A stretch of DNA of 64,000 bases from Candidatus Accumulibacter sp. ACC003. GTDB taxonomy: Bacteria; Pseudomonadota; Gammaproteobacteria; Burkholderiales; Rhodocyclaceae. The notes below the pieces were generated by a model that ran no database searches, was not told the origin of the DNA, and worked only from the letters and a program-made list of their open reading frames with translations. Where the stretch lies: assembly GCF_907163085.1 (NCBI RefSeq), contig NZ_CAJQTX010000006.1, positions 62,001-126,000 of the forward strand. The letters run 5' to 3'. Positions 23,057 to 30,418 of this stretch are shown here, piece by piece. A program made the position numbers and the translations under genes. Each line of letters starts with the position of its first letter. Positions within the stretch are counted from its first letter, which is position 1.

Positions 23057-25018
23057 ATGCCGGAAACGACGTCGTCGCCAGCGTTGGATACCTTTCCGCG
23101 CTTGCTGGTCAATCATGCTCGCGTGCGTGGCGACAAGCCGGCGATGCGCGAGAAAGACCTTGGCATCTGGCAGTGCTGGACCTGGCAGGACGTTGCCGAC
23201 GAGGTTTGCGCGATGGCCTGCGGTCTCGTCGAAATGGGCTTCAGGCGCGGCGAGAACGTCGCCATCGTCGGCGACAATCGGCCTCGCATGTACATGATGA
23301 TGACCGCCGTGCAGTGTCTCGGTGGCGTTCCCTTGCCGCTCTATCAGGACGCGGTGGCCAACGAGATGCTGTTCGTCCTGGTCGATGCCGAAGTCCGTTT
23401 CCTGTTCGTCGAAGATCAGGAGCAGGTCGACAAGGTGCTCGAACTGCAGGAGCAGTTGCCGCAACTCAAGCACCTCTTCTATGGCGATCCACGCGGCATG
23501 CGCCACTACACGCAGCCCTTTATTCATGACGTTCGCGAGTTGCTCGAAATGGGGCGGGTGCACCATCGCCAGCACCCCGATCTGCTGGCGGCCGAGATCG
23601 CCAGGGGCGCTTCTTTGGACGTCAGCGTCATGCTGTACACCTCGGGCACGACCGGCAGGCCGAAGGGGGTGTGTCTGACGCACCACGCCTTCATCAGTGC
23701 CGCCCGTGGCGGGGCCGAGTTCGACCGGCTGAGCGCGGACGAAGACATCCTCTCCTATCTGCCGATGGCCTGGGTCGGCGACCATCTTTTTTCGTTTGCG
23801 CAGGCGCTGCTCACCGGTTTCACGATCAACTGCCCGGAGTCGGCCGAGACGGTGATGAACGACTTGCGCGAAATCGGCCCGACGTACTACTTTGCACCGC
23901 CACGCGTCTTCGAGAACCTGCTGACGCAGGTGATGATCCGCATGCAGGACGCCAGCGCCATCAAGCAGAAAATGTTTCATTACTTCATGGGCGTCGCGCG
24001 GCGCAGTGGTGCGGAAATCCTCGACGGCAGGCCGGTGTCCACCGCCGATCGTTTGCTCTATGCGCTGGGCAGGTTCTTTGTTTTCGCTCCGCTGAAGAAT
24101 GTACTGGGTATGAGCCGCGTGCGCGTCGCCTATACCGCCGGCGCGGCAATCGGTCCGGACCTGTTCCGTTTCTATCGCTCGATCGGTATCAACCTCAAGC
24201 AACTCTACGGTCAGACCGAAACCTGTGCCTACGTCTGCCTGCAGCCCGACGGCCAAATCAAGTTCGACAGCGTCGGCAAGCCGGCGCCGGGCGTCGAGGT
24301 GAAGATCGCCGACAACGGCGAGATCCTGGTGCGCGGCCCGATGCTGCTCAAGGAGTATTACAAGCGGCCCGATGCGACCGCCGAAGCGCTCAACGCCGAC
24401 GGCTATTTCATGACCGGCGACGCCGGTATCTTCGACGGCGACGGCCATCTCAAGATCATCGATCGTGCCAAGGACGTCGGCAAGCTGACCAACGGTGCGA
24501 TGTTCGCGCCCAACTACATCGAGAACAAGCTCAAGTTCTTCCCTTACATCAAGGAGGCGGTGGTCTTCGGCGACCGCCGCGAGATGGTCTGCGCGTTCAT
24601 CAATATCGACATCGGCGCGGTCGGCAACTGGGCCGAACGGCGTGGCCTCGCGTATTCGGGTTATACCGATCTGGGGGCCAAGCCGGAGGTTTATGGATTG
24701 ATCCAGGAGTCGATCGAGCAGATCAATTCCGAACTGGTGGGGGAAGGCGCGCTGGCCGATTCGCAAATCCATCGCTTCCTGATCCTGCACAAGGAACTCG
24801 ATCCCGACGACGACGAGTTGACGCGAACGCGCAAGGTGCGGCGTGGTTTCGTCGCCGAGAAGTACGGCGTACTGATCGACGCGCTGTACGGCGGCAAGGA
24901 CAGCCAGTTCATCGAGACGGCGGTGAAGTTCGAGGACGGACGGCAAGGCAAGGTCGCCGCTGATCTGGTGATCCGGGACCTGAAGACCTTCGCCGTTGCC
25001 GGGAGGGCCACAGCATGA
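23057..25018 (+). CDS. AMP-binding long-chain-type acyl-CoA synthetase
   Basis: A 653-residue ANL enzyme that activates a carboxylic acid with ATP and CoA. Motifs: VMLYTSGTTGRPKGVCLTH near residue 190, YLPMAWVGDHLFSF, LKQLYGQTETCAYV, GYFMTGDAGIFDGDGHLKIIDRAKDV, and a long C-terminal domain with ADSQIHRFLILHKELDPDDDELTRTRKVRR. The last motif and length resemble FadD15/long-chain synthetases that head Liv-type operons in betaproteobacteria. GGAGGAGACAAG just before ATG 23057 sets the start. Its stop overlaps the livG-like start (ATGA), so the two are coupled. The substrate could be a fatty or aromatic acid. Confidence 0.88.
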   Translation: MPETTSSPALDTFPRLLVNHARVRGDKPAMREKDLGIWQCWTWQDVADEVCAMACGLVEMGFRRGENVAIVGDNRPRMYMMMTAVQCLGGVPLPLYQDAVANEMLFVLVDAEVRFLFVEDQEQVDKVLELQEQLPQLKHLFYGDPRGMRHYTQPFIHDVRELLEMGRVHHRQHPDLLAAEIARGASLDVSVMLYTSGTTGRPKGVCLTHHAFISAARGGAEFDRLSADEDILSYLPMAWVGDHLFSFAQALLTGFTINCPESAETVMNDLREIGPTYYFAPPRVFENLLTQVMIRMQDASAIKQKMFHYFMGVARRSGAEILDGRPVSTADRLLYALGRFFVFAPLKNVLGMSRVRVAYTAGAAIGPDLFRFYRSIGINLKQLYGQTETCAYVCLQPDGQIKFDSVGKPAPGVEVKIADNGEILVRGPMLLKEYYKRPDATAEALNADGYFMTGDAGIFDGDGHLKIIDRAKDVGKLTNGAMFAPNYIENKLKFFPYIKEAVVFGDRREMVCAFINIDIGAVGNWAERRGLAYSGYTDLGAKPEVYGLIQESIEQINSELVGEGALADSQIHRFLILHKELDPDDDELTRTRKVRRGFVAEKYGVLIDALYGGKDSQFIETAVKFEDGRQGKVAADLVIRDLKTFAVAGRATA

Positions 25019-25797
25019 GTCGGCAGATCGGCGAGGTGATTCTCGACCTGCAAAAGGTTTCCCTGGCGTTTGGCGGCGTCAAGGCACTGACCGACATTTC
25101 CTTCGACGTCCGCGAGCACGAGATCCGGGCAATCATTGGCCCGAACGGCGCCGGCAAGAGCTCGATGCTCAACGTTATCAACGGCGTCTATCGGCCGCAG
25201 GAAGGAGAGATCATCCTGCGTGGGCAGCACTTCAGCAAGATGAATCCCTACAAAGCGGCCAAGGCCGGCATCTCGCGCACCTTTCAGAACATCGCCCTGT
25301 TCAAGGGGATGAACGTCATCGACAACCTGATGACCGGCCGCAACCTGAAGATCCGCAGCAACCTGCTGCAGCAGGCATTCTGGTGGGGACCGGCACGCCG
25401 CGAAGAGCTCGCGCATCGCGCCAAGGTCGAGGAAGTCATCGATTTTCTCGAAATCCAGCACATTCGCAAGACGCCGGTTGGCCGTCTGCCCTACGGCTTG
25501 CAGAAGCGCGTCGACCTCGGTCGCGCGCTGGCCATGGAGCCAAGCATCCTGCTGCTCGACGAGCCGATGGCCGGGATGAACGTCGAAGAGAAGCAGGATA
25601 TGTGTCGCTTCATCCTCGACGTCAATGATCAGTTCGGTACGACCATCGTTCTGATCGAGCACGACATGGCGGTGGTCATGGATATCTCCGACCGTGTCGT
25701 CGTTCTCGACTACGGCAAAAAGATTGGCGACGGCGACCCCGACGCGGTTCGTGCCAATCCCGAAGTCATCAGCGCGTATCTTGGCGCCAGCCACTGA
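25015..25797 (+). CDS. Branched-chain amino acid-type ABC transporter ATPase (LivG-like)
   Basis: A 260-residue ATPase of the HAAT (Liv) class. Walker A GPNGAGKSS near residue 45, Q-loop RTFQNIALF, signature region PYGLQKRVDLGRALAMEPSILLLDEP with Walker B, and switch histidine VLIEHDM. The signature LPYGLQKR replaces LSGGQ, as is common in LivG proteins. It pairs with the livF-like ATPase four genes downstream to power the two permeases. ATG 25015 overlaps the upstream stop. Confidence 0.92.
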   Translation: MSRQIGEVILDLQKVSLAFGGVKALTDISFDVREHEIRAIIGPNGAGKSSMLNVINGVYRPQEGEIILRGQHFSKMNPYKAAKAGISRTFQNIALFKGMNVIDNLMTGRNLKIRSNLLQQAFWWGPARREELAHRAKVEEVIDFLEIQHIRKTPVGRLPYGLQKRVDLGRALAMEPSILLLDEPMAGMNVEEKQDMCRFILDVNDQFGTTIVLIEHDMAVVMDISDRVVVLDYGKKIGDGDPDAVRANPEVISAYLGASH

Positions 25798-25808
25798 GGA
25801 GTGCAGTG

Positions 25809-26738
25809 ATGGGTTTCTTCCTGGAAACGTTGATCAGTGGCCTGATGGCCGGCATGCTGTACTCACTGGTGGCGCTCGGTTTTGTGCTGATCTTCAAGGC
25901 CTCCGGGGTGTTCAACTTTGCGCAGGGGGCGATGGTCCTGTTCGCGGCGCTGGCGATGGCGCGTTTCGCCGAGTGGCTCCCGGCCTGGCTCGGTGTCGAG
26001 GCTTCGTACCTGGCGACCGCCGCGGCCTTCGTGGTCGCTGGCGCGCTGATGTTCGTCGTCGCCTGGTTGGTCGAGCGCCTGGTCTTGCGTCACCTGGTGA
26101 ATCAGGACGGTGCGACGCTGCTGATGGCGACGCTGGGAATCTCCTACGTCCTGGAAGGTGTTGGCTCGAGTCTCTTCGGAAACGACATCTACAAGATCGA
26201 CGTCGGGATGCCCAAGGACCCGGTGTTCATCCTCGATTCGATCTTCGAAGGCGGCTTGCTGATCAACAAGGAGGACTTCATCGCGGCGCTGATCGCCACC
26301 GTGCTGGTCGGGCTGTTGACGCTTTTTTTCCAGAAGACGACCACCGGGCGGGCGTTGCGGGCAGTTGCCGACGACCATCAGGCGGCGCAATCGATCGGTA
26401 TCCCGCTCAATCGCATCTGGGTGATCGTCTGGTGTGTGGCCGGCGTCGTGGCCCTGGTCGCCGGCGTCATCTGGGGCTCGAAGCTCGGCGTGCAGTTTTC
26501 GCTGACGACGGTGGCCATGCGCGCGCTGCCGGTGGTCATCCTCGGTGGCCTGACGTCGGTTCCCGGTGCGATCGTCGGCGGGCTGATCATCGGCGTCGGC
26601 GAAAAGGTCTCGGAGGTCTATCTTGGACCGCTGGTCGGCGGCGGTATCGAGATCTGGTTTGCCTACCAGCTGGCTCTGGTGGTCTTGCTGTTCAGGCCGC
26701 AGGGTCTGTTCGGCGAGAAGATCATCGACCGCGTTTAA
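25809..26738 (+). CDS. Branched-chain amino acid-type ABC permease (LivH-like)
   Basis: A 309-residue inner-membrane permease with about eight helices. LivH features: LISGLMAGMLYSLVALGFVLIFKASGVFNFAQGAMV at the start, KTTTGRALRAVADDHQAAQSIGIPLNRIWVIVW (the coupling loop to the ATPase), and LPVVILGGLTSVPGAIVGGLIIGVGE. ATG 25809 (after GAGGAG) is preferred over GTG 25806. It lies 11 bp after the livG-like gene and forms the transmembrane channel with the livM product. Confidence 0.93.
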   Translation: MGFFLETLISGLMAGMLYSLVALGFVLIFKASGVFNFAQGAMVLFAALAMARFAEWLPAWLGVEASYLATAAAFVVAGALMFVVAWLVERLVLRHLVNQDGATLLMATLGISYVLEGVGSSLFGNDIYKIDVGMPKDPVFILDSIFEGGLLINKEDFIAALIATVLVGLLTLFFQKTTTGRALRAVADDHQAAQSIGIPLNRIWVIVWCVAGVVALVAGVIWGSKLGVQFSLTTVAMRALPVVILGGLTSVPGAIVGGLIIGVGEKVSEVYLGPLVGGGIEIWFAYQLALVVLLFRPQGLFGEKIIDRV

Positions 26739-26753: not shown

Positions 26754-27820
26754 GTGCTCTATAGAGAAAACGGTCAGTTCAAGACGTCCTACGCGGCCGA
26801 TCAGCAGATTTTCCCGATTGCGCAGGACCGCTGGGCGATCATCGGGCTGCTGCTGTTTGCTTTCGTCGCCGTTCCCCTGCTGGTCGACGAGTACATGTTC
26901 CGGGCCATTCTCATTCCCTTCCTGATCCTTTCGCTGGCTGCCCTGGGAGTCAATATCCTGGTCGGCTACTGCGGCCAGATCACGCTCGGTGCCGGGGCTT
27001 TCATGGCCGTCGGCGCGTACGCCGCGTACAACTTCAACGTTCGTATCGAGGGCATGCCGCTGCTCGTGTCGCTGCTGCTCGGTGGCCTGACTGCCGCCGT
27101 CGTCGGGATTTTTTTCGGCATCCCGAGCTTGCGCGTGCGTGGTCTTTACCTGGCCGTCGCGACGCTCGCCGCGCAGTTTTTCACCGACTGGGTTTTTCTG
27201 CGGATTACCTGGTTTACGGACGACTCGCTGTCGGGCTCGGTTTCGGTCTCGAACTTGCAGGTGATGGGTTGGCAGATCAACAACCCGTTGAGCAAGTACC
27301 TGTTCTGCCTGAGTTTTTGGCCAAGCTGGGTCGGCGTTTTTTGGGCCGTCAAGATTAGTGTTTTGCGTACGGGCCATACTGCCCGGCCGCCCCGCTGTGG
27401 GGATTTCCGCCATTTATTCTCGTTTCGGGGAGCCGGGCGGCTTTTTCGGGCGAATTCGCGTTTTTTTTCCAGTTGTGGTTCATGGCGTCATTCATCGGCG
27501 GGGCATAGGTTTCGATTTTTCATGGGCAAGTTTTCTTCGGGGGCAGATTTCAATAGGTTCGGTCCTTGCAGGATTCCGGGCGGAAATCGTCTATGCACCG
27601 GAAGCTGGCGGCAGAAATTGGCGGTCGGAACTTTCTCGGAAACACGGCCGGCGTGTCAACACGCAGAAAAAAAAATGATCGTCTTGGGCGGGGGCTCCGA
27701 TGTTATTTTTCTGATTCAAAAGGGGAACGCCCCCACGGGGGCATCGCTCGTCTGGGGGTCACACGGCAAGTAAAACCAAAGGAAAAAGGACAGGGGGCTT
27801 CTGGCGGTTTTCCGCATTCG
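26754..27820 (+). CDS. Branched-chain amino acid-type ABC permease (LivM-like), 3' half frame-disrupted
   Basis: The first 185 or so residues from GTG 26754 (after GGGGAGAAGG) are a normal LivM: LAALGVNILVGYCGQITLGAGAFMAVGAYA and FFGIPSLRVRGLYLAVATLAAQFFTDWVF. From about 27310 the frame breaks down and the formal frame stops at 27773. Across frames I can still follow LivM: RTGH near 27367, an LLFMVIIGG-like stretch at 27471-27505, GS-I-MGSFFGA near 27510-27550, MI-(F)GA-LI-FFLI near 27675-27717, GIARLW at 27741 and an LW-FPH-like end near 27800-27820. The total length (about 356 codons) is right for LivM. The sequence appears error-rich rather than a different gene. Confidence 0.8.
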
Positions 27821-28290
27821 GAGGCCGTGGCGGTGGGCGTGTCCGCGGCACCCGGTCAAGGGAGTTTTTCGGGCAGGTTCGCAGCCAAGCCAGGTTCCAT
27901 TTTTCAAATAGGAGGAGGGGGGGGACCAAATTAAGACTTAAGCCAAGCCTTCGCATTATAAAACAGGCGGCGTCAGGGCGGGCAGTCGTCGTCGTCGCGG
28001 GCCCAACCGCGGTCGGGGCGGTCCCGCAGGGCGTTCAGGCCAAGGGAAGCCCAGTTATTCGGTTTAGTGGTGCCCGTAAACCGGGGGCCGGCATCGCGCC
28101 CAGAATGCCCAAATCCTGGGGAAAACGGGTTATATCGGAATTTACCTCCAAAAATTGTGAAAAAAAAACAAACCGACAGAGGGCGGGAGATTCAAAGGGG
28201 AGTGGGGAAGGGGAAACGTTTTCGCGGATGTGCGCGAGGGTTACCGCGGGGCCGGGGACCCGGGTAAATCGTCGGAATGCTTTGAAGAAG
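27305..28290. other. About 1 kb of frame-scrambled, homopolymer-rich sequence
   Basis: Codon structure is lost here on all frames, and long runs appear that are absent from the neighbours: T8 at 27461, A9 at 27667, G8 at 27917 and A9 at 28160. Recognisable LivM and LivK fragments occur in the right order with small indels between them. Flanking DNA on both sides is normal. This fits an uncorrected or very low-coverage patch of the assembly. Real decay of two adjacent genes is the alternative, but it would not explain the sharp edges and the runs. Confidence 0.75.
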
Positions 28291-29352
28291 CGCCTGAAGG
28301 GCATGCACGGCGGCGCGACGGTGTTCCAGCCGCTGTCGACGGGCGGCACCTTCGCGCTGACCGAGAAAGCGCCGAAGGACAAGATCCCGCTGATTACGGC
28401 GGGTTACGGCCGTAGCGAATCGCAAAATGGCGCCGTCTTTGCCTGGAACTTTCCCCTGCTCGGGACCTACTGGGTCGGTTCCGAAGTCGCCATCCAGTAC
28501 ATCGCCAAGAAGATGGGCGGTGTGGCCAATCTGAAGGGCAAGAAGATCGCGCTGGTCTATCACGACAGTCCGTACGGCAAGGAGGCGATCCCGGTGCTCG
28601 AGGAGCTGAGCAAGAAATACGGCTACAGCGTGCAACTCCTGCCGGTGGCCGCGCCGGGCGTCGAGCAAAAAGCGACCTGGCTGCAGATCCGCCAGGCCAG
28701 GCCAGACTTCGTTCTGCTTTCCGGTTGGGGGGTGATGAACCTGACCGCCTTGCGTGAAGCGCAGGCGACCGGCTATCCGCGCGACAAGATGCTGGGCAAC
28801 TGGTGGTCGGGTGCCGAACCCGACGTCAGGGACGTTGGTGAAGGTGCCAAAGGGTATAGCGCGATGACCCTGCAGCATGGCGCCGAGCCCGATTCGAAGG
28901 TCGTCAAGGACATTCTCGCGACCTTGCACGCCAAGGGACTGGGCACCGGGCCGAAAGAGGAAGTGGGTGACGTGCTCTACATGCGTGGCCTGATTTCGGC
29001 GATGCTCGCCGTCGAAGGCGTCCGCAAGGCGCAAGAGCGTTACGGCAAGGGCAAGGTGATGACCGGCGAGCAGGTGCGCTGGGGGCTGGAGCATCTCGAT
29101 CTCGACCAGAAAGCGCTCGATGCGATGGGCTTTGCCGGCGTGATGCGGCCGGTGCAGACCTCGTGCCTTGACCACATGGGATCGTCGTGGGTGCGCATTC
29201 ACACCTGGAACGGCAAGAAGTGGGAGTTTTTGTCACCCGACTGGTACCAGGCCGATGCCAATACGCTGCGCCCGATGGTGATGCTGGCCTCCGGCAAGTA
29301 TGCGGAGGAGAAGAAGCAGGCGCCGCGCACTCCCGAGGAGTGTAACAAGTAA
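27925..29352 (+). CDS. Liv-type ABC transporter substrate-binding protein (LivK-like), 5' part frame-disrupted
   Basis: Periplasmic binding protein of the Leu/Ile/Val type. From about 28280 the frame is clean: TVFQPLSTGGTFALTEKAPKDKIPLITAGYG, TYWVGSEVAIQYIAKKMGG, LVYHDSPYGKEAIPVLEELS, RPDFVLLSGWGVMN and the C-terminal SPDWYQADANTLRP. The N-terminal third lies in the scrambled patch: AGGAGG at 27911, a signal-peptide-like RIIKQA..VVVA stretch at about 27950-28000, VQAK near 28033, then traces of YR-G-YAPNG..W.NGY and ECFE-RLKG near 28270. The start is approximate; the first intact in-frame ATG is 28302. It probably binds the acid activated by the operon's ligases. Confidence 0.8.
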   Translation, partial: TKLRLKPSLRIIKQAASGRAVVVVAGPTAVGAVPQGVQAKGSPVIRFSGARKPGAGIAPRMPKSWGKRVISEFTSKNCEKKTNRQRAGDSKGSGEGETFSRMCARVTAGPGTRVNRRNALKKRLKGMHGGATVFQPLSTGGTFALTEKAPKDKIPLITAGYGRSESQNGAVFAWNFPLLGTYWVGSEVAIQYIAKKMGGVANLKGKKIALVYHDSPYGKEAIPVLEELSKKYGYSVQLLPVAAPGVEQKATWLQIRQARPDFVLLSGWGVMNLTALREAQATGYPRDKMLGNWWSGAEPDVRDVGEGAKGYSAMTLQHGAEPDSKVVKDILATLHAKGLGTGPKEEVGDVLYMRGLISAMLAVEGVRKAQERYGKGKVMTGEQVRWGLEHLDLDQKALDAMGFAGVMRPVQTSCLDHMGSSWVRIHTWNGKKWEFLSPDWYQADANTLRPMVMLASGKYAEEKKQAPRTPEECNK

Positions 29353-29390
29353 GGCGATTGCCGGAAAAGGACGTACCAGATTGCGCCGGA

Positions 29391-29473
29391 TTTTCGGTCG
29401 TCTTCAAGGCGCGACAACAGGCGCATAGTCGAACTATGCAACTGTTTGTCGCAACACAGAAGACGGGTGAAAA
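29391..29473. repeat. 83-nt nested foldback element
   Basis: TTTTCGGTCGTCTTC (29391-29405) faces GAAGACGGGTGAAAA (29459-29473); inside these GCGACAA faces TTGTCGC and at the tip GCATAGT and ACTATGC close on a CGA loop. Only a few mismatches interrupt the long stem. It looks like a mobile or dispersed intergenic repeat (MITE- or REP-like), placed between livK and livF. Confidence 0.65.
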
Positions 29474-29521
29474 GACAAGCAAGGTGGTATGTTCTTTGAC
29501 AGAAATCGCCTAAGTCCCGCC

Positions 29522-29605: not shown

Positions 29606-30418
29606 ATGAGCACCGCCAACATTCTTCTCCGAGTCAACAGCATCGAGGTCATCTACAACCACGTGATCCTGGTTCTCAAAGGCGTTTCGTTCAGCGTTCC
29701 CGAGGGCGGCGTGGTGGCCCTGCTGGGGGGCAACGGTGCCGGCAAAACGACGACCCTGCGCGCCGTCAGCAACTTGCTGCACGGCGAGCGCGGTGAAGTG
29801 ACCAAAGGCACCATCGAGTTGCGCGACGAGCGCATCGAAGCGCTGACGCCGGCCGATCTGGTCAAGCGCGGCGTCATTCAGGTGATGGAGGGGCGGCATT
29901 GCTTTGGCCATCTGAGTATCGAAGAAAACCTGCTGACCGGCGCCTACACCCGCCGCGATGGCAAGGGAGCGATCAATAGTACGCTGGAGAAGGTGTATTC
30001 GTACTTTCCACGCCTGAAGACGCGTCGTGGCAGCCAGGCGGCGTACACCTCGGGCGGCGAGCAACAGATGTGCGCTGTCGGTCGGGCGCTGATGGCCAAC
30101 CCGCGCATGGTGTTGCTCGACGAGCCGTCGATGGGGCTGGCGCCACAGATCGTCGACGAGGTGTTCTCCATCGTCAAAGACCTGAACCAGAAGGAGGGAG
30201 TGACTTTCCTGCTCGCCGAGCAGAACACCAACATGGCGCTGCGCTACGCCGATTTTGGCTACATCCTCGAAAACGGCCGTGTCGTGATGGAGGGGGCAGC
30301 CAGCGATCTGGCGGCCAACGAAGACGTCAAGGAGTTCTACCTGGGTCTTTCGTCGGTCGGGCGCAAGAGTTTCCGCGACGTCAAGCACTATCGGCGGCGC
30401 AAGCGCTGGCTTTCCTGA
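29606..30418 (+). CDS. Branched-chain amino acid-type ABC transporter ATPase (LivF-like)
   Basis: A 270-residue ATPase: Walker A GGNGAGKTTTLRAVSNLL, Q-loop QVMEGRHCFGHLSIEENLLTGA, signature TSGGEQQMCAVGRALMANPRMVLLDEPSMGLAP and LLAEQNT. The GRHCFGHL segment takes the place of GRRIFP in typical LivF. It has a basic C-terminal tail (FRDVKHYRRRKRWLS) longer than E. coli LivF. ATG 29606 is the start of the conserved part. The 253-bp gap to livK is unusually wide for this operon and is filled by foldback repeats. Confidence 0.92.
   Translation: MSTANILLRVNSIEVIYNHVILVLKGVSFSVPEGGVVALLGGNGAGKTTTLRAVSNLLHGERGEVTKGTIELRDERIEALTPADLVKRGVIQVMEGRHCFGHLSIEENLLTGAYTRRDGKGAINSTLEKVYSYFPRLKTRRGSQAAYTSGGEQQMCAVGRALMANPRMVLLDEPSMGLAPQIVDEVFSIVKDLNQKEGVTFLLAEQNTNMALRYADFGYILENGRVVMEGAASDLAANEDVKEFYLGLSSVGRKSFRDVKHYRRRKRWLS

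Follow-up and report, generated by a model that had tools for sequence, protein, structure and literature searches.

Within the draft genome of a wastewater bacterium, Candidatus Accumulibacter, an operon presumably for branched-chain amino acid ABC transport (liv) carries a scrambled patch of about 1 kb that breaks the permease gene livM and the binding protein gene livK, and so the question arises whether these two genes are decayed or interrupted in the organism, or intact there and misread in the assembly. The genome comprises 5.39 Mb in 13 contigs, a figure that would suit a long-read assembly, and its completeness is rated 100%; the patch lies on contig 6, in the 64,000 nt stretch of DNA analysed here (the window). 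Sequence error had been preferred to deletion, insertion or a novel gene by a first-pass annotation made from the letters alone, and the comparisons reported below support that preference. It seems almost certain that livM and livK are ordinary and intact in the organism and that the patch is a wrong assembly consensus.

Layout of the operon and the patch

Open reading frames of the window together with Pfam matches give the order livG, livH, livM, livK, livF, in agreement with Ca. A. regalis and other Accumulibacter in both gene order and sequence (Table 1). The liv letters are those we take to apply, livG being assigned through operon order and sequence. An equivalent of the Ca. A. regalis livK start codon cannot be read in the aligned patch. 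Separately, a repeat of about 165 bases lies 3' of livK (window 29350-29521). It has 19 other matches, full or partial, in the genome at 75-97% identity, and a part also matches the relatives G008, G010 and G001; it may represent a small intergenic element of mobile or palindromic kind.

Table 1. The liv operon and its scrambled patch (window coordinates), and other misread-looking stretches of the assembly (contig handle and position)
Feature	Position	Strand	Evidence
livG, ATP-binding subunit of branched-chain amino acid ABC transporter, intact	25015..25797	+	ORF; Ka/Ks 0.034 over 260 codons vs Ca. A. regalis
livH, permease, intact	25806..26738	+	ORF; Pfam BPD_transp_2, E 3.4e-31; Ka/Ks 0.070 over 306 codons
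livM, clean 5' half	26754..27304	+	Pfam BPD_transp_2, residues 51-153; gap-free; Ka/Ks 0.072 over 182 codons
Scrambled patch (livM 3' half, intergenic spacer, livK 5' end), almost certainly misread	27305..28290	.	Alignment to Ca. A. regalis; homology far above shuffles
Patch, deletion-rich part	27305..27499	.	97 deleted vs 18 inserted bases (sum of bins 27300-27499)
Patch, insertion-rich part	27500..28290	.	221 inserted vs 58 deleted bases (sum of bins 27500-28299)
livK 5' quarter, scrambled	27928..28305	+	Frameshift-aware alignment to N part of Ca. A. regalis LivK
livK, clean 3' part, periplasmic binding protein	28306..29352	+	Pfam Peripla_BP_6, E 4.4e-35; 93% identity to Ca. A. regalis; Ka/Ks 0.066 over 347 codons
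livF, second ATP-binding subunit, intact	29606..30418	+	ORF, start codon picked by eye; Ka/Ks 0.027 over 229 codons
Misread-looking stretch L170	C1:33.3 kb		Read by eye
Misread-looking stretch L121	C1:401.5 kb		Read by eye
Misread-looking stretch L127	C4:136 kb		Read by eye
Misread-looking stretch L130	C5:69.8 kb		Read by eye
Misread-looking stretch L180	C5:658.3 kb		Read by eye
Misread-looking stretch L188	C11:297.5 kb		Read by eye

Inspection of the sequence and run-length statistics bear out the extent, the scrambling and the homopolymers of the patch as first described, the runs being T8 at 27461-27468, A9 at 27667, G8 at 27917 and a further A9 at 28160. Runs in the patch have a mean length of 1.66, whereas the 1-kb flanks stand at 1.33 and 1.34 and the corresponding Ca. 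A. regalis sequence at 1.35, and among the 256 bins of 250 bases that make up the whole window only three, spanning 27251-28000, have more than 8% of their bases in runs of at least 5 (mean 1%). Across 400 kb of its own contig five segments reach a mean run length of 1.55; the patch, with a peak of 1.82, is the sole one above 1.6, and the other four peak at 1.55-1.59. That every frame is lost within it, as had been stated, is not quite so: the reading frame 26754-27773 (339 aa) remains open, by chance, its only Pfam match stopping at residue 153 and the patch starting at about residue 184.

Homology to livM and livK

The patch aligns in order along its whole length to livM-livK of Ca. A. regalis, with a global score of 254.6 against a mean of -63.7 (sd 19.4, maximum -1.6) for 200 dinucleotide shuffles and -112.8 for the reverse complement. 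Each of six successive 164-base pieces outscores all of its own 100 shuffles (a leftover 2-base piece is uninformative). At the protein level, frameshift-aware scores of 207 for LivM and 127 for LivK lie above those of all 25 single-base shuffles in each case (means 84 and 49, maxima 123 and 73) and above the reverse complement, with 85 of 150 codon-aligned residues identical across 16 frameshifts in LivM and 60 of 99 across 14 frameshifts in LivK. The presence of LivM and then LivK sequence in order is thereby confirmed. Among the short peptide pieces named earlier, RTGH is probably a chance occurrence, no such motif standing there in the aligned Ca. A. regalis, in a region that aligns poorly.

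Operon matches from 22 genomes of the same genus are interrupted at the patch: the upstream match stops at window position 27310-27318 in 21 genomes and earlier in the remaining one, and the downstream match starts at 28268-28291 in all 22. When gap costs suited to indels are used, blastn crosses the patch for Ca. A. regalis (L005) at 74% identity, with 76 gap openings in 2975 columns. The spacing had been said to equal that of intact genes, but it is somewhat larger: two flank anchors lie 1501 nt apart in this genome, as opposed to 1417 nt in Ca. A. regalis (84 fewer), the patch itself having 986 bases vs 903 in its counterpart. Likewise, the stretch between the clean LivM and LivK anchors measures 1015 nt here, 931 nt in the relatives' loci L032, L033 and L042, and 836-931 nt across the 32 loci with both anchors.

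Selection and intact loci in relatives

Measured against Ca. A. regalis, the Ka/Ks values of the clean parts of livM and livK (Table 1) are like that of intact livH and indicate strong purifying selection, and so these parts are not decaying. Relatives' loci (34 examined, L032-L065, among 80 fetched) carry the 3' half of livM open in 32 cases, for 179-182 residues past the anchor, including L036, in which a contig end cuts off the livM 5' end; in the two exceptions, L045 and L063, the contig ends just upstream of or within livK. Upstream of the livK anchor, 33 of the 34 loci keep the frame open over at least 96 residues, L063 being cut. A search of the own genome returned no second copy of the patch, which matches only itself, and a single match to the LivK query, so a duplicate or mobile copy was rejected. 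A link to plasmid records was also rejected, 103 of them matching at 60-80% identity throughout and, among the 20 matches listed, with at most 27% query coverage.

The error spectrum and its edges

Aligned to Ca. A. regalis, the patch bins 27300-28299 contain 671 matching, 239 inserted, 155 deleted and 90 substituted bases, and the flanking bins 417 matching, 7 inserted, 7 deleted and 77 substituted, so that indel bases rise from 14 per 501 aligned flank bases to 394 per 1000 bases of patch bins. The few flank indels are probably an effect of lenient gap costs, because blastn for L003 and L007 spans both flanks without gap openings. Substitutions are not raised (90 of 761 aligned columns in the patch, 77 of 494 in the flanks). 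The change in indel load occupies one 50-base bin edge on each side, and these sharp edges ignore gene limits and cut two genes. The indel bases fall into 98 insertion and 80 deletion events, about 180 in total, and the expectation that a few dozen corrections would restore both proteins is therefore too low for the DNA; the top-scoring alignments at the protein level contain 16 (LivM) and 14 (LivK) frameshifts.

Deletions predominate over the first 200 bases of the patch and insertions over the remainder. Among the inserted bases 159 of 239 (67%) equal an adjacent base, a proportion lying between 60 simulations of random insertion (35%, sd 4%, maximum 47%) and 60 of pure run lengthening (87%), closer to the latter, with 80 of the 239 copying no neighbour. 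Indels thus dominate in the patch, and for the most part they lengthen runs, though less than pure run lengthening would. The indel load amounts to about 40% of the counterpart length (394 of about 900), which is more than a raw long read usually carries, and so a simple unpolished read may be an insufficient explanation.

Similar patches elsewhere in the assembly

Runs of A9 and G8 were used to pick 40 stretches of the genome, a sample of such sites rather than a census, with run-length thresholds set after the patch had been seen. Mean run length reaches at least 1.55 in 12 of the 40 (13 segments), and six of these peak at 1.65 or above; all six look misread when read by eye (Table 1), and the analysis went on to a comparison with 27 relatives for three of them and a base-by-base alignment for one. 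To the eye, some of the six are rich in T/C or C/A and others in G, which gives the impression that each shows the bias of a single strand.

At C1:401.5 kb the matching flanks lie 435 bases apart in G008 and 449 in G010, vs about 480 here, and the alignment to G010 has 103 deleted and 30 inserted bases over its first 250 nt, and 6 and 112, respectively, over the second 250 nt. In 14 of the 27 relatives a single contig carries both sides of C5:658.3 kb, the matches being 236-697 bases apart vs 750-820 here, and the gap at C4:136 kb measures about 1490 bases, compared with 1160 in the longest-matching relative, G022; these two size differences, that at C4 above all, may partly be real divergence. 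The same fault therefore recurs in the assembly independently of the gene, at six stretches by eye and at one by alignment. Both base-aligned patches (27305-28290, and 2500-2999 of L121) have a deletion-rich start and an insertion-rich end in the + direction.

Weighing the explanations

That the sequence is wrong over intact genes is strongly supported, and error is the best explanation because the patch is homologous throughout, the rest of the two genes is under unrelaxed selection, the edges are sharp, the insertions mostly copy their neighbours and like patches occur elsewhere. Were the sequence true, livM and livK would be pseudogenes decayed in this strain, as both proteins are indeed broken as given, but about 180 indel events in 1 kb are not ordinary decay while the rest of the genes stands at a Ka/Ks of about 0.07, and sharp edges spanning two genes and similar-looking patches elsewhere fit no better. 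Selection outside the patch, where decay would have relaxed it over the whole gene, rules out long-dead genes, and a recent death followed by ordinary decay would not yield so many events; the pseudogene reading is accordingly exceedingly improbable. A foreign insert, a replacement or a novel gene between two half genes would agree with the 83 extra bases, yet the colinear alignment along the full patch contradicts it, relatives do have a counterpart for this sequence, Pfam returns nothing at E 0.01 for three ORFs of the patch (106, 122 and 115 aa) and no second copy exists in the genome, which leaves it hardly any probability.

Equally far-fetched would be a true local burst of indels in the cell, deletion-rich and then insertion-rich, at several genome sites and too recent for relaxed selection to be visible. 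A variant of the error itself, in which reads from at least two co-occurring Accumulibacter strains failed to align mutually and were merged in the consensus, is very unlikely: a mixed culture is a possible source of the genome, 11 of the 12 Accumulibacter-named records among the fetched loci being titled MAG, but a strain mixture should give mostly substitutions, which are not raised in the patch, and the insertions mostly copy neighbours. Under the favoured reading of a wrong consensus, low-quality or badly aligned read sequence would have stayed in the assembly, with bases dropped in the first 200 nt and runs, for the most part, lengthened in the other 800 nt, and the step that failed would be the polishing of a single-read sequence or a local consensus.

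Significance

Errors that fragment genes in long-read assemblies (Kastor, PMC12007338) and that shift frames in MinION genomes, Accumulibacter included (PMC7966762), have been described, and the false frameshifts and stops described there, in genes intact in relatives, resemble those of the patch. The patch nonetheless packs its roughly 180 events into 1 kb with sharp edges, whereas long-read errors of this kind are mostly scattered single indels. It is most likely an ordinary artefact and no real feature, and it is the only respect in which this liv operon differs from that of Accumulibacter relatives. Run-length inflation singled out the patch in 400 kb of contig and may serve as a cheap screen for others. 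In such patches gene absence, pseudogene counts and ORF calls are untrustworthy, whatever the completeness rating of the genome.
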